Shown here piece by piece: positions 7,447 to 22,236 of a DNA stretch of 22,670 nt. Position 1 is the stretch's first letter. Every line of letters starts with the position of its first letter. Under the pieces are notes generated by a model, which worked only from the letters and a program-made list of their open reading frames with translations, had not been told where the DNA came from and ran no database searches. Origin of the DNA: a virus; IMG/VR virus record IMGVR_UViG_3300042549_002136, positions 1 through 22,670 of that record; one strand, 5' to 3'. The position numbers and the translations under genes are program-made.

Positions 7447-10187
7447 TGGCAACGTTCAACACCGCGTTTGGCTCGTTGCCAAGCCCCAAGAAAGACCTGT
7501 TTGGCAATGCGCCGATGGGTGGGGACGACGACGACGATTACACCAAGGGGTTTGCGCCGGGGTCTACGACCGAAAAGACGGCAGCAGCCCCTCCGCCAAC
7601 GAACACGTTTGCCGACTTGCAGAAGCAGGGTGTGGCACGGCCAGCCCCTCGGGATACGTCTGCCGTCTCACCTGAGTTTGACGCAGCGGCTATGACGCCG
7701 ATGTTGTCGCAGTTGCAGGAACGGCTTCCTGAGGCTGCACCGGATCAAGCGGATGCTGCGCCGATGGCTGGGCCACAGGCCGTGCCGATGCTTGGGCAGT
7801 TGCAGCAGTCGTTGTCTGGTATGGCCGCGCCTGACGCTGGCGAATTTGTGCTTGGTGACGGGGCTGGTGGGTCTGGTGGGATTGGCAATGTTGGCGGTGG
7901 CGGTGGTACACCTCCTCCCCCTCCGCCGCCGCCCCCGCCGACGATGGGATACAGCGCCACGGGTGGGATTACCGGAACGCCGACGATTGACAAGGACACC
8001 GGCACGGCGACGTACACGAACGTTGAAGTGCCCGTGTCAAACGCGCCACAGTACAAGGCTGGGACGGTGCCGCCTCCGACCGCCCCGAACGGCTCGACGT
8101 TTGTGTCGAGCAGCGGCGTCACATGGACGAAGCGGGGTGGCGTGTGGGGCGCAGAAGCACGGGCTGGCGTTGCGATGCCCACGGGCTATGCCGCGCTGAC
8201 TCCCCCAGAGTTGGCCGCACAAACGCAAGCCAACCTCCCAAGTGGGGCGGCGGGATTTGGTGGAACCCTTAGCTCTGAGCCGGGTCAAGGGTCAGGGCTG
8301 TACCAGTTCCTCCGTAAATACGGGACGCCTACTTCGGAAGCGGAGTTTGCCACGCTGGCGCAGCAGGCAGGGAAGACGGTTGAGCAACTTAAGAGCTACA
8401 TCGCCTCCCAGCCTGCCAACACAAACTTTGGCACCAAGCGGGATGTCGATACCAATGCCGAAGAACAGGCGTGGAAGAAAGAGAACAAGGTTGACTCTGT
8501 TCCGTACAACTACGCCTATGTGCCAGCGAGCGAGGGTGGCCCTCGTCTCCGCAAGAAGTCGTATGAGGAGATGGTAGCCGCAGGCTATCAGCCGTATGGT
8601 GGCAAGGCATTGTATGACAGCCCTGCCAACGACTTGCGGTTGGCGCAGGCAAGTGGCACCACCAACCTCCTGCGGACCTTTGGCGGTCTTGCGGGTGGCG
8701 TGTCTAACCCCGGTGGTGCTGGCCCCGGAGGACCGGCTGAAGGTGGGCCTGAGCTAACAGACAGCAATCAGCCGTTGCCGCCGCGTGATAAGCCGCCAAT
8801 TCCTATTCTCCCCCCTCCCACGGGCGGCGGGACGCCGGGAACAACGGGTACTCCTCCAGCAACACCTCCAGCGGCAGCACCGCCGACAGGTGGCGGGACG
8901 CCGGTGACAACGGGCGGTGCCCCGACAGGTGGCGGTACCCCAGCGACAGCGGCTACTCCTCCGCGAGTGGCCTACACGCCGCCCCCAGTAGCAGGCGGCG
9001 GGGCGGCTACCCCAGCAGCGGCAGCCATCCCAACCTACACAGCGGCCACGGAAGGCGCTGGGCAGTTCTCCTTGTCTGCTCAGTCACAGGCGTTGCGGGA
9101 TGCGTTGCAGGCGCGGTTGGCAGAGTTAGGCAGTGGCCCGACCAAGATTCAGGGACAGTCCTACGAGGCACTACGGGCGGCACGGCAAGCTGAGTTGGGC
9201 GCAAAGTACGGCGCAGAACGCAGCAAGCTCGAAGAAGAACTCGCAGCCCGAGGGTTGTCGGCGTCCACGATTGGTGGGGGTCGCTACGGCGATCTGGCGG
9301 GTCAGCAGGCCCGTGCCTTGGGAACGCTGGATGCGGAACTGCTTGGGCAGCAAGCGGAGGCTGAAGCACGGGATCGTGCCCAGTACTTGAACACCATGCA
9401 GCAGTTTGCCCAGACCACCGGAACGCAGGACATCGGCACGTTTGAGGCCAATGTCCGGTCGAAGGAGGTCACGGCTACCATCAACCTCCGTGCGGCAGAG
9501 TTGCAGCAACGGGCAGCGCTGGAAGGCCGTTCGCTCGACTTGCAGCAGGCACGGGATCAGGCAACCTCCGAGTATCAGATGGGCCAGTTGGCCCTTAGCA
9601 CGGACGAGTTGGGCGAAACACGGCGTCGGAATCTTGCGGGGGAAAGCCAAGCAACGCTTGAGTTGGCCGAACGGAAGCGGAGTGGGTTGGCTGGAGAGAA
9701 GTTACAAGGCGACCAGCAGGCAGAAGACAAGCGCAAGAACGATCTGCTTGATAAGGTTCAGCAGGGTCAACTGACTCTACAGCAAGGAATTGCCGTGAAT
9801 CAATTGCTTTCCGACATCTACGCAGGCCGAGTTCCAGCAGAAGCGTGGGAAGCCACCTTGCGGGCGCTGGGCCTTAAACCTGCTGACTTTGTGAGCCTCA
9901 AGCCAGCAGCCAAGGAAGACAAGGCCGCAACAGACAAGGCTAAGGAAGACAAAGCCAAGGAAGACAAGGCTAAGGAAGATAAGGCCGCAGAAGATAAGGC
10001 CGCAGAAGATAAGCAAAGGGAAGCCGACGAGGCATTAGCAGCAGCAAAGCGCGGCTCCGGTACGCCCGGTGGCCCCGGTGGTTTGACAGGACGCCCCAAC
10101 CGACCCGGAGCTTTTGATAATGAAGTCGTCGGCAATTACCGCTGGAACGCTGGTGACTACCAGTGGGAGCAGTACACGGGATTCTGA
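7446..10187 (+). CDS. large low-complexity internal virion-type protein
   Basis: This 913-residue protein is largely disordered up to about 530. It has an acidic DDDDD cluster (27-31), a related pair of MLSQLQERL / MLGQLQQSL segments (about 82-125), a Gly run followed by ten prolines (156-165), and a Pro/Thr/Gly-rich linker (about 425-530). Residues about 545-800 form long helices rich in Ala, Glu, Gln and Arg, including a RGLS.STIGGGRYGDLAGQQ turn. A 34-residue Lys-Glu-Asp repeat (823-856) and a C-terminal motif ending NYRWNAGDYQWEQYTGF follow. It lies among other candidate ejection proteins. I see no enzyme motif. A scaffold or ejected protein is the most likely role. Confidence 0.7.
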   Translation: MATFNTAFGSLPSPKKDLFGNAPMGGDDDDDYTKGFAPGSTTEKTAAAPPPTNTFADLQKQGVARPAPRDTSAVSPEFDAAAMTPMLSQLQERLPEAAPDQADAAPMAGPQAVPMLGQLQQSLSGMAAPDAGEFVLGDGAGGSGGIGNVGGGGGTPPPPPPPPPPTMGYSATGGITGTPTIDKDTGTATYTNVEVPVSNAPQYKAGTVPPPTAPNGSTFVSSSGVTWTKRGGVWGAEARAGVAMPTGYAALTPPELAAQTQANLPSGAAGFGGTLSSEPGQGSGLYQFLRKYGTPTSEAEFATLAQQAGKTVEQLKSYIASQPANTNFGTKRDVDTNAEEQAWKKENKVDSVPYNYAYVPASEGGPRLRKKSYEEMVAAGYQPYGGKALYDSPANDLRLAQASGTTNLLRTFGGLAGGVSNPGGAGPGGPAEGGPELTDSNQPLPPRDKPPIPILPPPTGGGTPGTTGTPPATPPAAAPPTGGGTPVTTGGAPTGGGTPATAATPPRVAYTPPPVAGGGAATPAAAAIPTYTAATEGAGQFSLSAQSQALRDALQARLAELGSGPTKIQGQSYEALRAARQAELGAKYGAERSKLEEELAARGLSASTIGGGRYGDLAGQQARALGTLDAELLGQQAEAEARDRAQYLNTMQQFAQTTGTQDIGTFEANVRSKEVTATINLRAAELQQRAALEGRSLDLQQARDQATSEYQMGQLALSTDELGETRRRNLAGESQATLELAERKRSGLAGEKLQGDQQAEDKRKNDLLDKVQQGQLTLQQGIAVNQLLSDIYAGRVPAEAWEATLRALGLKPADFVSLKPAAKEDKAATDKAKEDKAKEDKAKEDKAAEDKAAEDKQREADEALAAAKRGSGTPGGPGGLTGRPNRPGAFDNEVVGNYRWNAGDYQWEQYTGF
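9912..10013 (+). repeat. KED/KAAED coding repeat
   Basis: A 102-base tract repeats the unit AAGGAAGACAAGGC with small changes and encodes alternating Lys and Glu/Asp (residues 823-856 of the 913-residue protein). The mixed use of GAC/GAT and AAG/AAA shows some drift between units. It would form a highly charged single helix or flexible spacer. Confidence 0.8.
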
Positions 10188-10216: not shown

Positions 10217-11170
10217 ATGGCGCGAAGAGGATTTTTAGACTATGTGCTGGGTGGGGCCGTTGGTGGGCTAGAAGGGTTAGCCCAGAAGCGGGCGGCGGAG
10301 GAGGAGCGGAAGCGGATGGCGGATGCGGCGGCACGTACCCAGATGCTTGACACCATATCGCTCTTGAACGCTGGCTACGATCCAGAGGGGTTCAGTCAGG
10401 ATATGCCGGGGGCTACCCCTCGTACTCCGTTTGACACGCAGATGGTGGGCACCCGCAAGTTTACGCGATCCATGTCTCCGCGTCAGATGAAGCACATGGA
10501 GGACGTACAGGACGAGCAGGCAAAGACCCGATCCAAGCGGCTTGATGCGTCGTTAAAGCCCGCTGCCAATCTTCCCCTTCGCTACACAGAAGGGGAGACA
10601 GGGATCAGCGTGTTCAACCCTAGGGACGGAACATCAACATTCCAGCCATACCCCAAGGGCTTCACGCCTAAAAAGCCCGCTGAAAGAGCAGGCAAGCCAG
10701 AGCCGTCTGACGCAGAGAAGCGGAGGCTTGGCAATCAGTACTTGGCATCTCAAGCGCGGAACCCTGCGCTGATGGCGGCGTTGCAGACCACGTTTGCCAA
10801 CGAGCCTGAGTTGGCTGAAGACTCGGCGCTTGCTGCGTATGACATTATGATGTCAAAAGTTGTCACGAAGATTGGAGCTGGGAAAGGATACACGGCTCCT
10901 AAGTCGTCTGAGTCTGAGTCAGAAAGGTATGATCGCCAGCTTCGCGAAGAAGCGGCAGCGCGTAAGGCTGCAAAAGCAAAAGGGGCCACGCCTGTCAAGA
11001 CTGTCACGCCGTCGCCTGCACCGCAAGCGTCGACCCCTGCGCCTGCTACTAGTTCTGACGCCGCATACAAGCAATCTCAGCGCGCCGATCTTTGGGAATC
11101 CATCAAAGCAAGCAACCCCACACTCTCTGACGCTGACATCACGGCTCAGGTCATGCGGAGAATCCCGTAA
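10217..11170 (+). CDS. internal virion-type protein, mid-size (hypothetical)
   Basis: This 317-residue protein starts with MARRGFLDYVLGGAVGGLEG and then an Arg/Lys/Glu/Ala-rich helix (about 22-45). Residues about 60-165 look poorly structured. Residues about 165-220 are helical, then comes a charged stretch and a Pro/Ala/Ser/Thr linker (about 255-285) before a short helical C-terminus (288-317). GGAGAGAAG lies just before the ATG. Its stop overlaps the next start (TAATG), coupling it to the 1628-residue gene. By position and composition it is a further internal or ejection protein candidate; no family is recognised. Confidence 0.65.
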   Translation: MARRGFLDYVLGGAVGGLEGLAQKRAAEEERKRMADAAARTQMLDTISLLNAGYDPEGFSQDMPGATPRTPFDTQMVGTRKFTRSMSPRQMKHMEDVQDEQAKTRSKRLDASLKPAANLPLRYTEGETGISVFNPRDGTSTFQPYPKGFTPKKPAERAGKPEPSDAEKRRLGNQYLASQARNPALMAALQTTFANEPELAEDSALAAYDIMMSKVVTKIGAGKGYTAPKSSESESERYDRQLREEAAARKAAKAKGATPVKTVTPSPAPQASTPAPATSSDAAYKQSQRADLWESIKASNPTLSDADITAQVMRRIP

Positions 11171-14100
11171 TGGGTAACCCCTTTAAGCAGGCAACGACTG
11201 CCGTTACGTCTAAGGGGAACCCGTTCCGCACCAGTGATGCAGAAACCGCGATCAAAGATTCTGCACTGTCGCCTTTGCTGGAAGATCCGTTCCCGAAGGC
11301 AGGGCGGATAACGGCTGGTGCTGGCCCCCGCATTGGCATTGGCGCTGGGGTGGCTCCAGTCGTCACGTCTGCCCCTGCTCCAAAAGAGTTTGAGAAGCGA
11401 CTTGCCCGCGCTGTTGCACAGGGTACAAAGAAAACGGCCCCGTTTGGCGACGAGTCGGAGCTAACAAAGGAGCAGGCGCTTCAACTTGCCCGCGCAAAGG
11501 GGGCCGTTGCTGTTGCAGAAGACATCGGGCGATCTATTGCGGGTCAGCCTGCGCGGACACTGTATCGTACCGCCACGGGCATTGCTCGACTCCGCAACGA
11601 TCCCCGTGCCGAGCGACTGGCCGAGCAGACGCGAGAGATTGAAGAGAGCACCGCCCCGCAAACTGGGTTTGGGGAAGTCACAATCCCGTTGCCAAAGTCC
11701 TTAGCCAAAGCGGTGGGCGTTGATAAACTGCCAATCAACCTGCTCCGCGCTGGGGCAGAGATGGGGGCGTTTATCCCGTCTGGGATTGCGATGGGCGCAC
11801 TCCGTTCCGGTGTAGAGTCAGCGGCGGGCAAAGAGTTCAGCACCGTAGGACGAAACATTGACGACCCGCTAACCCGAGCGTTAGCTGATGCCGCATTTGA
11901 CTTGGCCATCCCCGGGTTGATGGCTACTCCAAGAGCCGTGCGGTCGGTCCGAAAGCTGGGGCGTGTTGGCGACGAGCTTGGCGATGCCTTCACGCAAGGC
12001 ATCCGCGAGGGAGCGCCCGAAGCCGCTGAGTCCGTCGTCCCGTCGTTGTCCAGAAAAGATGGGTACGTCCCACGGGCTGCCGCAGAAACGCAGATCAATC
12101 GCTTGCTTGCCCCGAAGGCGCAGGCAGGGTCGGCGCAACCGTTGTTTAGGATGCCGCCTATACCGGAAGCGGCTGGGGCAGAAGCTCCTGCCGTGGTACA
12201 GAGAACTGGTCGGCGCACGGCGGCTGAAGTCCTTGCCAAGCGCCCAGAGTTTGAGATGCCTGCGGCCCTCACGGCGGAACCCGCAGAAGTTGGCGCATAC
12301 ACGGCTGGCAAGTCTGTTGGGGGAGCAAGGGTTGCTCGCACCCCTATCGAGCAGGCATTTGCGAGCGCCGAAGAAGCGAGGAAGCTGCGTGACATTAACA
12401 TCCGAGAAGGCATCGGATCGCCAAGCGAGTTGCGGGAACGACTCCGCAAGACTGGCATCATTGGCGGGAGGGCAGAGAACGCTCCAGACTTAGAGCGGAC
12501 GCCAGACAGCGCGATGGAGCAAGCCGCGCAGGAAGTTTTGGGAGAAGCGTCAGTGGTTGGCGCAGAAGCCCCTGAAGCGTTCCGGGATATGCCGTGGGAG
12601 AAGATTGCAGCGGAGAGCAACAAGAAGATCAATCTTGCCAAAGCGTCGGATACCCAGCTTGAGGAGATTCTCAACAACCGCGCGATGAAAATTGCCGAGC
12701 TTGAGTCTCTGGTAAATAGCTGGGACGAGCGGGTTGGCGGCGTGATCGAAAGCTTTAAGGGCAAGACACGTTCCCCAAACCTGACGCCGGGGATGCGGGC
12801 AAAGGCGACCCGCGAGAAGGCGGTAAGAAACCCTGTTACTGGCGAGTTGATTGAGACGGCTGCTGAGAAGAACGCCCGCGAGCGGGGGATCAGCGACGAA
12901 AACTTGGCTCGACTTGAAGAAGCTGGGTTTGCAGATCGTGATGACTACTTTGACCAGAAACGTGCCGTTGATAAGGCGCGCCTTGTGCTGAACCCGTTGC
13001 GAAAGTCAGAGTACTTGGCGCAAAAAGAATACGTTCGGCGCTTCAACGAGGGGGTACGGTCTGGCAAGATTGAAGGTGAGCTTATGCCAGAGCCAGTAAC
13101 CCCAGCCAAGGGAGCGTCAGCAGAAGCCACTGCGAAAAAGGCCGAACAACAGGCGTTAGACAAAGAGAACGCTGCCGAACTGAAGAGACTCAAGCGTCCT
13201 CCTCCGTCTGGGTTTGCGAACCCGGCGTTGGTTCAGGGGCTTGGCGGGTTCGGGGCTGGAGCAACGGCTGGCGTTGCGACTGACGAAGAAGGCGGGATGT
13301 CCCCTTTGCAGCGAGCGTTGCTGTACGGGGCGGCTGGGGCTGCCGGTGGGGTCGGGATTGGCCGCGCCATGCGGGGGAAGGGCGGGGCAGTCGCGCCGTC
13401 TATCCCCGAACTCTCGGCAATCATGGGGACCATCAACACCGGGAAACGTGCGGGTGCTGAAGAAGTCCCGGGGATGCTGACCAGAGCACAGCGGTTGTAC
13501 GGCAAGCTGGTGTCTGAGACGTACCCGCTTGAGGAAGCTGCCCGACGGTTTGGGAGTCCCGAGCAGGGGAAAGAGCTTCCGGGTCTTGTTGCTCAAAAGC
13601 AAGGGTCTGGCCGTGCGGCTGAAGGGTATTTGCAAGACAACCTTTCTCCGCTGCTTCGGACGCTTTCCAAAGAAGAGAAGCAATCTGTTCGCGGGCTGCT
13701 CAAGTCGCGGCGTGATTTGCAGATCCGTCAGCTTGGGGGAGCCGCAAAGTCTGATGTCCCAACGGACGTGCTTGAACGTGGGGTAGCTGCGGGCAACGCG
13801 AACCCAAAGATTGCTGGTGTTGCAGACCGCATTACCGAGATGCACCGTGAGTTGCTGGAGATGCGGTACAAAGCGGGGCTGCTGACCGACGAAGCGTATG
13901 ATGCGATCATAAAGAGCGATGACTTCTACACGCCGCTCTACCGCGAGATTGTCCAAGATGCTGGCCCCGTCCGCACCACGCCGGGGGCACGGTCTGGGAA
14001 GTTCAACGTGTTTAGCTCTGGCGTCCGCAAGATGGACCGCACCGCCGAGGCGTTTGAGAAGACGGCGGACCCGTTGGAGATGGTCATTTCCGACGCAGCA

Positions 14101-16056
14101 CGGACGTATCGTGACGTGTCAAAGCAGCGCGCATCCAACGTGATCTTCAGCATTGCCGATGCAAACAAAATGGTTGGCCCAAACGGGCTTCCGCTTATTG
14201 AACGGATACAGGCTGATCCGATGTCCCCTCCGAAGGGACCGGACATCATACAACAGGTCCGTGGGGGCAAGCTGTACACCTACCGCGTTAACGACAAAGA
14301 CTTGATGGATGCGCTGTCCAGCCAAGACGATGTATCGGCAAATGCGATTGTCAAGTTTGCCAGCTTAATGAAAAACGTGCAAACGGCTGGCATTACGGTG
14401 TTGCCAGATTTTGCCGCCGCAAACGTAATCCGAGACGTGGCAATGTCTGGGGTCCAGCGTTTAGACCTCGGGCGCGCTGCGCGTGAGGGCGGTCTGGGCG
14501 CGCTTGTTGGCGGAACAACGGGAGCCGTGACTGCCGACTCTGAGGAAAGTGCTGTCAAACGGTTTATGACCGGGGCAGGGCTTGGCGTCGGCGTGGGGTT
14601 ATATGCGCGCCCACTCGCGCAAACATTGGGTGCCGTTAAGCAAATCATGTTCAACGAACAAATCTTCCGGGAGTTTTTGGCAAACGGTGGATCGACTGAA
14701 GGGTTTGCTGTCCGCAACGCTAATGATGCGGCAAAGATTCTCAAGGACTTAGAAAAGGGTCCGGGGTTTTCGGTCAGCGACATTATTATCCCGACAAACT
14801 GGTGGCAAACGCTCCGTAAGATCGGCAGCATTGGCGAGCAGGCCACTCGCGTTGCGGCGTTTCGGCAAGCCACTGACGCCGGGATGTCTGGGGCAGAAGC
14901 CGCGCTTTTCGCGCAGGACCGGACATTGCGGTTTGCAAGCAGCGGCGGGAGCAAGTCTGTCAAAAACCTTGCGGCGATGACCCCGTTCTGGAACGCAAAG
15001 GTGCAGGGCTGGGACAAGCTCGCCCGCATGATGAAAGACCCGAAGACGTATCCGCTGGCGGTTGGTATGCTGACTGCGCCCAGTCTCGCGCTCTGGTCGA
15101 TTAACAAGGACAACCCGGAATACTGGGAGCGCCCGATATACGAGCGCAACTTGTTCTGGTTGGTCCCGAAGAGTGCGGTGGGGGCTGAAGGTGAAAAAGG
15201 ATTCTGGCGTATCCCAAAGCCTTTCGAGTTGGGGTTCCTGTTTGCCTCCCTGCCTGAACGGGCGCTGGACTATGCCACGCAGGCTGGGTTAGACCTCCCG
15301 TTCTTTGGAGAGATCCAGAGCGCCAGCCCGCAGGTAGCAGAGCCGGGGCGCGCATTGAAGCGTTCTGCGGCGGACATCGGGACTGCAACGCTTGAGGGGA
15401 CGCTGCCTGTCCCTGAAGTGCTTTCGCTCCCCGCCCAGCTTTATATGAATAAGGACGTGTTCAGGAACAGGCCGATTGTGTCGCGGCCACAGCTTTCCCC
15501 AGAGTTGCAGATTACCGACGAGTCTTCCGCTATTGCCCGCGCTTTGGCAAAGGCTGGCGTTAGCCCTGAGAAGACGGACTTCTTCATCCGCAACGCCTTT
15601 GGCACGGCGGGGGCTGAAGCATCGAAGTTCATAGATGTTGTGGCGCGGGAGGAGGGTGTCCCAGCGTCTGAGCCTCCTGCCGGTCAGGCCCGCATCCCGG
15701 TTATTGGGCGGTTTGCGGAGCGGTTCTCGACTAGCACGAAGGGGCAGACTGACCCGGAGGCGATGGCCCGTGAGCGGTTGCGTGAGTTGACGCAGATCGA
15801 GGTAGACTACAAAGAGCTAAAGCGGATAGGAGATCGCGAAAAGCTGCTCGACTTTGCGGAGAAGCACATGGATGACTTAGACTTAGCCAAGCGGATTCAG
15901 CCGCTAGAAACAGAGCTTGAAAAGCTGTCCCGTCTCCGAACAAAGATCCGCAAAGACAACAGCTATTCTCCTGAAGACCGAAAGATCGCGCTAGAGATTC
16001 TTCGCGAGCGCGGGCAAGCACTGTCAGAAGCCTTAATCGGAGTCCCCAAGCGATGA
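11170..16056 (+). CDS. giant internal virion protein with LPD38-like region
   Basis: This 1628-residue protein is the largest in the window. Residues 1-110 look disordered and 190-215 hydrophobic. Residues about 440-680 are charged helices, and about 682-735 form a glycine-zipper-like hydrophobic stretch. Residues about 760-1060 are helical, and a second hydrophobic Gly-rich stretch lies at about 1105-1160. Residues about 1067-1400 resemble the large polyvalent protein-associated domain LPD38: LPDFAAANVIRD, IGEQATRVAAF, MTPFWNAKVQGWDKL and, near 1345-1365, FWRIPKPFELGFLFASLPER. The C-terminus (about 1530-1628) is probably coiled coil. I see no transglycosylase or protease motif. It is probably packaged in the virion and ejected, with the hydrophobic stretches acting in the membrane. 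Confidence 0.8.
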   Translation: MGNPFKQATTAVTSKGNPFRTSDAETAIKDSALSPLLEDPFPKAGRITAGAGPRIGIGAGVAPVVTSAPAPKEFEKRLARAVAQGTKKTAPFGDESELTKEQALQLARAKGAVAVAEDIGRSIAGQPARTLYRTATGIARLRNDPRAERLAEQTREIEESTAPQTGFGEVTIPLPKSLAKAVGVDKLPINLLRAGAEMGAFIPSGIAMGALRSGVESAAGKEFSTVGRNIDDPLTRALADAAFDLAIPGLMATPRAVRSVRKLGRVGDELGDAFTQGIREGAPEAAESVVPSLSRKDGYVPRAAAETQINRLLAPKAQAGSAQPLFRMPPIPEAAGAEAPAVVQRTGRRTAAEVLAKRPEFEMPAALTAEPAEVGAYTAGKSVGGARVARTPIEQAFASAEEARKLRDINIREGIGSPSELRERLRKTGIIGGRAENAPDLERTPDSAMEQAAQEVLGEASVVGAEAPEAFRDMPWEKIAAESNKKINLAKASDTQLEEILNNRAMKIAELESLVNSWDERVGGVIESFKGKTRSPNLTPGMRAKATREKAVRNPVTGELIETAAEKNARERGISDENLARLEEAGFADRDDYFDQKRAVDKARLVLNPLRKSEYLAQKEYVRRFNEGVRSGKIEGELMPEPVTPAKGASAEATAKKAEQQALDKENAAELKRLKRPPPSGFANPALVQGLGGFGAGATAGVATDEEGGMSPLQRALLYGAAGAAGGVGIGRAMRGKGGAVAPSIPELSAIMGTINTGKRAGAEEVPGMLTRAQRLYGKLVSETYPLEEAARRFGSPEQGKELPGLVAQKQGSGRAAEGYLQDNLSPLLRTLSKEEKQSVRGLLKSRRDLQIRQLGGAAKSDVPTDVLERGVAAGNANPKIAGVADRITEMHRELLEMRYKAGLLTDEAYDAIIKSDDFYTPLYREIVQDAGPVRTTPGARSGKFNVFSSGVRKMDRTAEAFEKTADPLEMVISDAARTYRDVSKQRASNVIFSIADANKMVGPNGLPLIERIQADPMSPPKGPDIIQQVRGGKLYTYRVNDKDLMDALSSQDDVSANAIVKFASLMKNVQTAGITVLPDFAAANVIRDVAMSGVQRLDLGRAAREGGLGALVGGTTGAVTADSEESAVKRFMTGAGLGVGVGLYARPLAQTLGAVKQIMFNEQIFREFLANGGSTEGFAVRNANDAAKILKDLEKGPGFSVSDIIIPTNWWQTLRKIGSIGEQATRVAAFRQATDAGMSGAEAALFAQDRTLRFASSGGSKSVKNLAAMTPFWNAKVQGWDKLARMMKDPKTYPLAVGMLTAPSLALWSINKDNPEYWERPIYERNLFWLVPKSAVGAEGEKGFWRIPKPFELGFLFASLPERALDYATQAGLDLPFFGEIQSASPQVAEPGRALKRSAADIGTATLEGTLPVPEVLSLPAQLYMNKDVFRNRPIVSRPQLSPELQITDESSAIARALAKAGVSPEKTDFFIRNAFGTAGAEASKFIDVVAREEGVPASEPPAGQARIPVIGRFAERFSTSTKGQTDPEAMARERLRELTQIEVDYKELKRIGDREKLLDFAEKHMDDLDLAKRIQPLETELEKLSRLRTKIRKDNSYSPEDRKIALEILRERGQALSEALIGVPKR

Positions 16057-18985: not shown

Positions 18986-19705
18986 ATGCCAAACCTTTCG
19001 ATTATCCCCGCCCATGCGGTTGCTGACCCAGAACTTAGTGACACGCAGATCCGTGTGCTATGCGCTATTGGGACGTTCAGCAACCGCCTCGGCGGGAATG
19101 TATGGGCCAGCGTTCAGACTATGGCGAAGGGCTGTGCGCTATCTCCTCGCACCGTGCAACGTGCGATCCCGAAGCTGATCGAGCGCGGGTATCTGCACTC
19201 CGTTGAGCGTCCGGGGCGCACGACGGTGTATGAAATTGCGCTGGAACCCCTGACACCACAGTCACCCACCCCCGTCACGGGAGTCACCCCACCCCAGACT
19301 CAACTGAGTCACCCTAACGATAAGAAGAACGATAAGAAGAACGATAGCAAAAGCATTGCGCGAGAAGTATGTGGTTCAATCTGGGATTTCTACCCCAAGC
19401 GGGATACGCCACACCTCTACCCGCCTGCTGTCCGCGCCGTTGCTGGGTGCATTGACGACGGCGCAGAACCCAACCGTCTGATCTCAGCGGCGTTCCTGTA
19501 CGCGGATGAAGTCCGTCGCAAGCAGATCGACCCCCGCTATGTGAAGACGATCCACAAATTCTTTGCAGATGGCGCATGGGAACACTACACCCAGTTAGTG
19601 CTGGTGCATGGGCGCACCCGCGAGGAGTGGGCACGGTCTGGGCAAGATGTGGCCGAGTTTGATCGACTTTCTCTCTCCTACACAGGTGAACCACATGTCG
19701 CATAA
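18986..19705 (+). CDS. replication initiator, winged-helix (lambda O-like)
   Basis: This 239-residue protein has an N-terminal winged-helix domain (about 17-86), with LSDTQIRVLCAIGTF, then SVQTMAKGCALSPRTVQRAIPKLIERGYL and a wing ending VYEI. The linker (88-125) is rich in Pro/Thr and then Lys/Asn/Asp. The C-terminal domain (about 130-205) has WDFYPKRD and ADGAWEHY, as in phage replication proteins. In lambda, O binds iterons within its own gene and recruits helicase through its C-terminal part. The linker DNA here carries repeats that could be such an origin. AGGA lies very close to the ATG, so initiation may be weak. A primase-helicase gene follows downstream in the operon. Confidence 0.75.
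   Translation: MPNLSIIPAHAVADPELSDTQIRVLCAIGTFSNRLGGNVWASVQTMAKGCALSPRTVQRAIPKLIERGYLHSVERPGRTTVYEIALEPLTPQSPTPVTGVTPPQTQLSHPNDKKNDKKNDSKSIAREVCGSIWDFYPKRDTPHLYPPAVRAVAGCIDDGAEPNRLISAAFLYADEVRRKQIDPRYVKTIHKFFADGAWEHYTQLVLVHGRTREEWARSGQDVAEFDRLSLSYTGEPHVA
19260..19347 (+). other. candidate replication origin: GTCACCC repeats plus A/G-rich 12-mers
   Basis: GTCACCC occurs at 19261, 19283 and 19308, with a GTCACGG variant at 19274. GAGTCACCC is identical at 19281-19289 and 19306-19314. GACTCA-AC-TGAGTC (19297-19310) is an inverted repeat joined to the last copy. The AACGATAAGAAG 12-mer then repeats at 19316 and 19328 with a partial third copy at 19340. The three GTCACCC copies fall in three different codon phases of the initiator gene, so they are not a by-product of a protein repeat. 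The layout resembles lambda ori within gene O. Confidence 0.5.
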
Positions 19706-20252: not shown

Positions 20253-20488
20253 ACGAGAGCCAAGCATGGCGAGCAATCGCGGAGCAGTATGCGGTGCAAG
20301 CGGATTATTCCCTGTGGCTGCGCGCCTACGACCTGTATTTAGATCGGAACATTGACAACTTCACCTACCGTACGATGTGTGTGCGGATTGAATCGCACCT
20401 CAAGGCATCGGTAAAGCCGAACCGCTGGTGCCCGCCAATTAACGGGTGCCTTGTGGCGCTGTTTCTGGAGCTGGAGTCTGCCGAGTGA
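20249..20488 (+). CDS. hypothetical small helical protein
   Basis: This 79-residue protein starts at an ATG inside the previous stop (ATGA) and ends overlapping the GTG of the primase-helicase. It appears mostly helical, with W.AIAEQYAVQADYSLWLRAYDLYLDR at the N-terminus and a WCPPINGCL turn near 60-68. The same frame is open for 152 codons upstream, but that part lies over the preceding gene and reads as non-protein-like, Arg/Gly/Ser-rich sequence. Its position directly before the helicase gene would suit a loader or adaptor, but I see no loader motif, so that is only a guess. Confidence 0.65.
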   Translation: MNESQAWRAIAEQYAVQADYSLWLRAYDLYLDRNIDNFTYRTMCVRIESHLKASVKPNRWCPPINGCLVALFLELESAE

Positions 20489-22236
20489 ACTCCCTTGACG
20501 CGCACGGCCTGTTGAAGTCCGCCCTACTCCGTGGAGGGCATCATGCAAAGAAGACAGGCAAGGCCATAGCCTTCCGCTGTGTACGGCACAACGACAGCAC
20601 CAGTAGTGCGTGGCTGGGCGATCATGCGTGGGGATGCTCGGCCTGTGGCTTTACGGAGCCACTGGCGACACTGGCTGATGTGCTGGGGGTCACCCTGCCT
20701 GACGACGCGAAGGCGTCAAGTGGGCTGACGTTGGGGGAGTACGCCGAGCGGAAGGGGTTGTCGCTGGCAGGGCTGGCAAAAGCGGGGGTGGTCGAACGGG
20801 TAGGCAAGTTTGGCGATGCGATTGTCGCCATGCCGTACCGTCGTGCTGATGGCAGCGTCATCCGTACCAAGTGCCGCACCCGCAAGGGCACGTTCTGGGA
20901 CAGAGACGGAGAGGGCACCCCGCTGTACGGGCAGGATGTCTTGGCAAAGTCTTCTGTTGGCCCTGTGTTGATCGTCGAGGGCGAGAGTGATTGCCATGCG
21001 GGCTGGCAACGCGGGGTCACGGTGGTCGGCTTGCCCGGTGCGAGTCAGTGGAAGCCCGAGTATGCCAGCCTCTTGTCGGGCCGTGAGGTGATCGTGTGGC
21101 AGGAGCCTGACGAAGGGGGCGCAACGATGGTGGCGGCGATCTCTCCCTCGCTGCCGAAAGCCCGTATCCTGCGGGATGTGAAGCACCACGGTCAGCCCAT
21201 GAAAGACCTGTGCGACTTGCACCAGTCGGTGCAGTCACACGGCGATGACTGGGCAACGGTGTGGCAGGGGATCCTTGGCACCACCACACCCATCGGCGCA
21301 GAGCCGCCAGCCGTCGCCTTTGATTCGATCACGGGCGACACGTTGGATCAGATGTTGACCGAGAAGCTGGCCCCAGTGGACGCCGTGCCAACGCCGTTAG
21401 AGGCGTGGAACCGTGTGTGTGGATCAAGCGGTGGTGGCGTGGGCTTGGCAAAGAGTTGGCTGATTACGGTTGGTGCGAACACGGGCACGGGCAAGAGTCT
21501 GATCGGCATTAACCTCGCCGCCCGTGCCATCGAACATGGCGAGACGGTCACCTTCGTCTCGCTGGAGATGGGGCGGAGCGAACTCGCTACACGCCTGCTG
21601 TCGGTGGTCAGCAACGAGAGTGTGGTGCTGCTAGAGCAAGGGCCGATGTTCGATCAAGCGGTGTACGGACGAGCGGCACGGATGCTGAACGAAACCCGTG
21701 AACGCACGGGCGGTCATGTGTTAGTCAACCGTCGTCCGCTGTCGAGGATGTCTGATGTGTCGGCCTGCATTAAGCATCACGCCGAGGTGAGTGGCAGCAA
21801 GTACTTCATCATGGACTACATCCAACTCGCCAGCGTCAGCAACATGAATAACATCCACGACCGCATCGAAGCCGTCTCGCATGAACTCCGTGAGTTGGCG
21901 CAGACGCTGAACGTCCGCATGGTCACGCTGAGTCAGTTCAACAGACAAACCTCGGCCAACCGTGCCGAACGCCCGATCAGTCAGGGGCTGATGGGTGGGT
22001 CTGCGATTGAGAATGACAGCCACCAAGTCCTGCTGTTCGATCACTCCCGCTTCACCCGCTCTGGCAACTTGGCCGACACATGGTTGATCGTCGATAAGAA
22101 CCGTGTGGGTGGGTCGTGTGACATCCCCGTGCAGTGGGACTTCCGCACCCTCCGGTTGACTCAGCGGACGCCGAGTATCAAGGAGCAGGAAGAAAAGCAT
22201 GGCCCGATGATCCCCAAGTGGAAGGAGCGGAATTGA
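20485..22236 (+). CDS. primase-helicase (T7 gp4-like, DnaB-family helicase)
   Basis: This 583-residue bifunctional enzyme would unwind DNA and make primers at the fork. A zinc-binding motif lies at Cys32-x2-His35 ... Cys51-x2-Cys54. A TOPRIM fold follows, with Glu165 in VEGESD and Asp209 in WQEPDEGG. The DnaB-type RecA domain has Walker A GANTGTGKS (330-338), the helicase motif FVSLEM, Walker B with Asp444 in FIMDYIQL, and SQFNR. The start is GTG behind GGAG (20473-20476), within the previous stop; an ATG at 20446 would lie deep in the upstream gene. Length and domain order match T7 gp4 (about 566 residues). A phage polymerase is not in the window. Confidence 0.92.
   Translation: MNSLDAHGLLKSALLRGGHHAKKTGKAIAFRCVRHNDSTSSAWLGDHAWGCSACGFTEPLATLADVLGVTLPDDAKASSGLTLGEYAERKGLSLAGLAKAGVVERVGKFGDAIVAMPYRRADGSVIRTKCRTRKGTFWDRDGEGTPLYGQDVLAKSSVGPVLIVEGESDCHAGWQRGVTVVGLPGASQWKPEYASLLSGREVIVWQEPDEGGATMVAAISPSLPKARILRDVKHHGQPMKDLCDLHQSVQSHGDDWATVWQGILGTTTPIGAEPPAVAFDSITGDTLDQMLTEKLAPVDAVPTPLEAWNRVCGSSGGGVGLAKSWLITVGANTGTGKSLIGINLAARAIEHGETVTFVSLEMGRSELATRLLSVVSNESVVLLEQGPMFDQAVYGRAARMLNETRERTGGHVLVNRRPLSRMSDVSACIKHHAEVSGSKYFIMDYIQLASVSNMNNIHDRIEAVSHELRELAQTLNVRMVTLSQFNRQTSANRAERPISQGLMGGSAIENDSHQVLLFDHSRFTRSGNLADTWLIVDKNRVGGSCDIPVQWDFRTLRLTQRTPSIKEQEEKHGPMIPKWKERN

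Follow-up and report, generated by a model that had tools for sequence, protein, structure and literature searches.

Does a cluster of short repeats inside a phage replication initiator gene mark the place where the phage starts to copy its DNA, or do the repeats serve the protein, its messenger or transcription? The window, by which we mean the whole stretch of DNA analyzed, corresponds to a linear virus record 22,670 bp long, and it was found to be the same phage as a 33,447-bp record (G013; 99.995% identity over window positions 1207-22670). The original prediction, made from the letters of the window, was of a lambda-like origin within the initiator gene. Our analysis suggests that positions 19250-19374 are very probably an initiator-dependent replication origin inside the linker-coding part of this gene.

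The initiator gene and its neighbors

A search of the initiator (Table 1) against Pfam revealed HTH_36 at the N-terminus (1.5e-13) as the one family above cut-off, with no match to Phage_rep_O, and its best matches in PHROG were phrog_270, replication initiation (2.4e-20), and phrog_391, O-like (1e-12). Leaving aside the ends and residues 35-37, the AlphaFold2 model has a single segment with pLDDT below 50, residues 88-115, which is predicted to be the iteron-coded disordered linker between the winged helix and the helical C-terminal domain. A structure search with the whole chain returned weak matches, and the winged-helix part was found to be similar to DnaD N-terminal and MarR-type domains. 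The primase-helicase gene of Table 1 encodes the probable helicase loaded at this origin. Elsewhere in the window, positions 11170-16056 encode a 1628-aa protein with a match to Large polyvalent protein associated domain 38 (PF18857).

Table 1. Coordinates of the initiator gene, the putative origin elements and the helicase gene in the window
Feature	Position	Strand	Description
Replication initiator gene	18986..19705	+	239 aa; winged helix (HTH_36) at the N-terminus, then a disordered linker and a helical C-terminal domain
Iteron 1	19250..19267	+	CTGACACCACAGTCACCC; GTGAC-N6-GTCAC with one mismatch; position kept in relatives
Iteron 2	19272..19289	+	CCGTCACGGGAGTCACCC; degenerate left arm, includes the GTCACGG variant
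Iteron 3	19297..19314	+	GACTCAACTGAGTCACCC; carries the hyphenated dyad GACTCA-AC-TGAGTC, 19297-19310
Putative DNA unwinding element	19315..19374	+	AT-rich and purine-rich; 40% G+C vs 59% for the record
Three AACGATA repeats	19316..19346	+	12-bp spacing; copies at 19316, 19328 and 19340
Primase (TOPRIM-like)/DnaB-type helicase gene	20485..22236	+	DnaB_C 2.7e-31; phrog_239 primase/helicase 2.8e-42

Three iterons and an AT-rich segment in the linker DNA

The linker DNA was found to hold three 18-bp units, each with GTCACCC at its end, 22 and 25 bp apart. Perfect copies of GTCACCC start at 19261, 19283 and 19308, within 54 bases, and encode Gln-Ser-Pro (codon phase 2), Val-Thr-Pro (phase 0) and Ser-His-Pro (phase 1), as originally predicted; the inverted repeat anticipated at the last iteron is likewise present. 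The GTCACGG variant does lie at 19274, but it is not a fourth iteron because the corresponding site in relatives is occupied by the iteron 2 left arm. When the whole window was shuffled 200 times with dinucleotides preserved, no GTCACCC triplet arose within 54 bp. Three places in the window have any 7-mer three times in 54 bp, compared to a mean of 0.08 in the shuffles: the two arrays, of GTCACCC and of AACGATA, and a stretch near 9912 that codes for a lysine-rich repeat. This last is a 15-bp tandem repeat (9912-10000) encoding the Lys/Glu/Asp-rich AKEDKAKEDK segment of a 913-aa protein. At least three GTCAC/GTGAC within 60 bp were found at the linker array and nowhere else in the window.

The iterons of the window retain the right arm, GTCACCC, while their left arms are weakened. 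With a dyad weight matrix derived from three relatives, the linker site is picked out in most relatives; in the window, whose left arms are degenerate, the full-dyad score of the site is unremarkable genome-wide. The 60 bp after the last iteron have a G+C content in the lowest 0.25% of the record's 60-bp windows, and the tandem A/G-rich units expected after the iterons correspond to the three AACGATA repeats. GC skew proved uninformative because its minima are scattered, leaving the site unmarked, and the records are linear fragments in almost all of which the mean skew has one sign.

The repeats are conserved as DNA in related phages

Viral contigs searched with the initiator gene, and with DNA patterns drawn from its array, yielded loci of relatives at 35-78% identity; a separate search of a genome collection returned no relatives. 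The linker array is kept in 14 relatives (50-78% identical) with spacings of 22 + 23, 22 + 25 or 25 + 25 bp. Irregular spacing had been raised as a weakness of the prediction, but spacings of 22 and 25 bp are no argument against an array given that relatives conserve them. The repeating unit in the relatives is the hyphenated dyad GGGTGAC-N6-GTCACCC, seen most clearly in loci L021, L022, L026 and L032, and many units are full GTGAC-N6-GTCAC dyads. Because the 22-25 bp spacings are mostly not multiples of three, successive iterons mostly fall in different codon phases. Linker residues vary among the relatives (QSPTPVTGVTPP, ESLGGDMGVTPP or ESPHPRLSSVTPP) while the repeat spacing and phases are kept, so the proposed check, that repeats persist as linker residues change, was borne out. 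In two loci (L007 and L010) the third dyad is altered on both arms, to GACACA-GC-TGTGTC, with a Ser to Cys change. The relative with a 35%-identical initiator (G012) has its own perfect and different linker dyad, GTCGCATAGCTATGCGAC, so that linker motif and initiator diverge together. Two further loci, L034 and L035, differ in their initiators by extra tandem CAHSDTYP linker units of 24 bp each, as if slippage alters iteron number, and three others (L029, L030 and L031) match the C-terminal half of the initiator alone (residues 85-229).

The AACG repeats show the same behavior. Exactly three copies of AACG lie within 54 nt directly after the last iteron in 15 of the 15 genes compared. They are in codon phase 0 in the window group (Asn-Asp-Lys) and in phases 1,1,1 or 1,1,2 or 1,0,0 in the others (Lys-Arg, Glu-Arg, Ile-Thr), and the block CACCC[A/T]AACGA is translated as PNDKKND in the former and as PKREEER or PKRVKER in the latter. 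Given these differing phases, the CACCC[A/T]AACGA DNA is conserved across a reading-frame shift.

A plain count of repeated 7-mers in a single gene was too weak under codon shuffling, so we used a pooled test in which codons were shuffled while preserving the proteins of the 15 genes. GTGAC/GTCAC was observed 62 times compared to 26.5 ± 3.0 expected, with a maximum of 37 in 4000 shuffles, and AACG after the last iteron was observed 45 times compared to 21.1 ± 2.9, with a maximum of 30 in 4000; in both cases the 15 genes are related rather than independent samples, and the motifs were picked from the same data. The AACG excess in the window group alone is not significant (p ~0.45), and its support comes from the relatives read in other frames. 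The retention of array and AACG across codon phases, together with the different linker dyad of G012, places the constraint on the DNA.

A second cassette between the terminase genes of relatives

Of 24 occurrences of the pattern GTCACCCNAACG in 22 genomes, 17 lie in initiator linkers and 7 just upstream of the large terminase gene, terL; the reversed pattern gave 3 matches. Reading the sequence before terL in the 18 relatives in which the terminase was found, we identified a second cassette in nine (loci L072 in G001, L077 in G002, L069 in G007, L068 in G010, L064 in G011, L078 in G014, L065 in G016, L070 in G009 and L080 in G012). In eight of the nine it consists of at least one GTGAC/GTCAC dyad, then CACCC[T/A]AACG, then an AT-rich and often tandem-repeated stretch. 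The cassette is non-coding and lies between an Sf6-type small terminase gene and the large terminase gene (genes identified in G001). In eight of nine it lies 9.4-13.7 kb beyond the linker cassette in the downstream direction, a circular map being assumed for the distance in G011, and the seven of these with the GTGAC/GTCAC dyad have both cassettes on the same strand; in G009 it is inverted. In that genome (L055/L056) the terminase side, cassette included, is turned around with respect to the initiator, and the mean GC skew has the sign opposite to that of other records, which reflects either a real inversion or an assembly join.

In the divergent G012, the linker site and the terL site have both changed to the same new motif. 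With a matrix derived from the two dyads in its linker, the terL site scores 24.6 bits and the runner-up in 50.4 kb scores 13.8; the terL cassette is 10.4 kb from the linker dyads, and its AT-rich repeats precede the dyads. The simplest reading of these sequences would be that one factor recognizes both sites. That factor is most likely the initiator, since phages that lack the terL cassette still keep the linker array.

On the initiator tree the second cassette requires about six gains or losses. Two genomes with near-identical initiators differ in this respect, as G014 has the cassette and G004 (L079) does not; the terL gap of the latter holds an unrelated stretch with TTGACA in its place. 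For the phage of the window, no second cassette was found in the window or in the near-identical 33.4-kb G013, including the sequence before terL, although G013 does have a small terminase gene. The second site is, at about even probability, a second origin or a fork barrier. The chief competing reading, a late-gene operator, would be distinctly less probable, and a packaging-related role and some other role are each unlikely.

Alternative explanations for the linker repeats

Linkers are often repetitive, and Thr/Pro/Lys-rich codons yield similar DNA words, so the repeats might merely encode a low-complexity linker peptide. This seems highly improbable because the copies do not share one codon phase, the DNA is kept where the reading frame shifts and synonymous codons are used far from randomly, and a coding-only repeat was rejected on the codon-phase changes and synonymous shuffles. 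The claim that the repetition is at the DNA level was thus upheld by both the phases and the codon choice. We also considered that the dyad acts as an RNA hairpin in the initiator messenger, as GACUC/GAGUC pairing is possible in RNA, but the folding energy was only slightly better than that of shuffles (z = -1.4; 19 of 200 as good), leaving the hairpin unsupported. With the same dyads present in the non-coding DNA between the terminase genes as well, this role would be extremely improbable.

A further possibility is that the dyads are mainly an operator, which the initiator binds to control transcription while replication starts elsewhere. Perfect dyads are typical of operators, and nine relatives have the same kind of dyads before terL, where a transcriptional role is easily imagined. 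However, the linker site is mid-gene and adjoins conserved AT-rich repeats, and the dyads travel with CACCC[AT]AACG and the AT-rich flank in all except the divergent G012. A scan for a sigma-70 consensus promoter found none in the linker site, the terL cassettes of G001 and G002, or the terL gaps of G013 and G004, although this consensus may not apply in the host. An operator in the linker therefore appears very unlikely to us, and an intragenic origin of the lambda ori or SPP1 oriL type, with iterons and an unwinding region, is in all likelihood the best explanation.

Comparison with known origins and a proposed mechanism

The features of an intragenic origin found here are repeats inside the initiator coding sequence, conservation at the DNA level and an AT-rich region adjoining the iterons. 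From the directly observed repeats, their conservation as DNA, the position of the AT-rich segment, the initiator family and the gene neighbors, we infer that initiator binding, unwinding and helicase loading occur at 19250-19374. The winged-helix domain would bind the three 18-bp iterons, which follow one another at roughly two helical turns and each consist of a complete GTGAC-N6-GTCAC dyad or one half of it. The resulting complex would open the adjoining AT-rich segment with its three AACGATA repeats, and the C-terminal domain may then deliver the primase-helicase of the phage, whose gene lies 0.8 kb downstream, to the exposed strands.

A comparable layout is found in Salmonella phage P22, in which the origin lies within the initiator gene (gene 18) and a phage DnaB-type helicase gene (gene 12) is downstream, as in the window. 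Among isolated phages, Microcystis phage Mvi-Yong1342-1 (L082) and Sphingopyxis phage VSN-002 (L083) have HTH initiators with 37% and 33% identity, respectively, over the N-terminal domain. Both have four iteron-like linker repeats, spaced 17, 17 and 22 bp and unannotated in their records, but the iteron sequence is unrelated to that of the window and there is just one array per genome. In these two phages the linker arrays are followed by a common ACAAACCATCAAGAACCA stretch.

In lambda, ori lies in the middle of initiator gene O and consists of 19-bp iterons, each an imperfect inverted repeat, followed by an AT-rich tract, and two iterons plus the AT tract form the minimal unwinding unit (PMC7466680). 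The window is like lambda and the Stx phages P27 and 933W in having iterons followed by an AT-rich tract in the middle of the initiator gene. Unlike lambda, it has three iterons, spaced 22-25 bp apart and with a motif of their own, and three conserved AACG repeats in the AT tract, its initiator has no Pfam match to Phage_rep_O, and a fused primase-helicase rather than a lambda P-type loader is encoded downstream. What survives of the lambda-like origin first proposed is thus the order of iterons and AT-rich DNA within an O-like initiator gene, but not membership in the lambda family; the term probably describes a way of working.

Bacillus phage SPP1 oriL appears to be an equally good comparison for the origin of the window. 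SPP1 has one origin, oriL, within gene 38 and another, oriR, some 12-13 kb away in an intergenic part of the late region, and both contain direct repeats plus an AT-rich unwinding element and are bound by gp38 (PMC6316719, PMC3485210). When bound at oriR, gp38 is believed to halt forks and set off the change to concatemer formation (PMC6316719, PMC3485210). The phage of the window resembles SPP1 in that the origin is inside the initiator gene and the DnaB-type helicase is phage-encoded, but it has no second cassette beside terL. A second initiator-site cassette, as in a two-origin phage of the SPP1 type, is present in nine relatives, where it sits between the small and large terminase genes, and the 9.4-13.7 kb separation in eight of them likens these phages to SPP1 by layout. 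The relatives look like an independent case of the SPP1 layout.

We tentatively propose, at slightly less than even probability, that the relatives run an SPP1-like two-origin program with an unrelated iteron sequence. The initiator would fire the origin in its own gene and then bind the cassette between the terminase genes, either to stall a fork and trigger the concatemer switch or to time late transcription. The cassette would have come and gone repeatedly, probably together with the terminase module, leaving some members, including the phage of the window, without it.

Our literature search, which was poor in subscription papers, found no publication that describes this phage group, which argues for novelty only weakly because most such papers were missed. 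The origin appears to be another case of a known type, and what adds to its interest is that the AACG repeats hold regardless of reading frame and that about half of the relatives checked carry the second cassette. It gives an uncultivated phage group a sequence-defined origin and a pair of initiator and site ready for in vitro work. Further, with G014 carrying the second cassette and G004 lacking it, the question posed by SPP1, why one initiator should have two origins, becomes open to a natural comparison. Finally, the linker offers a clear case of one sequence with two uses, in which a constraint on the DNA overrides the reading frame of the protein.
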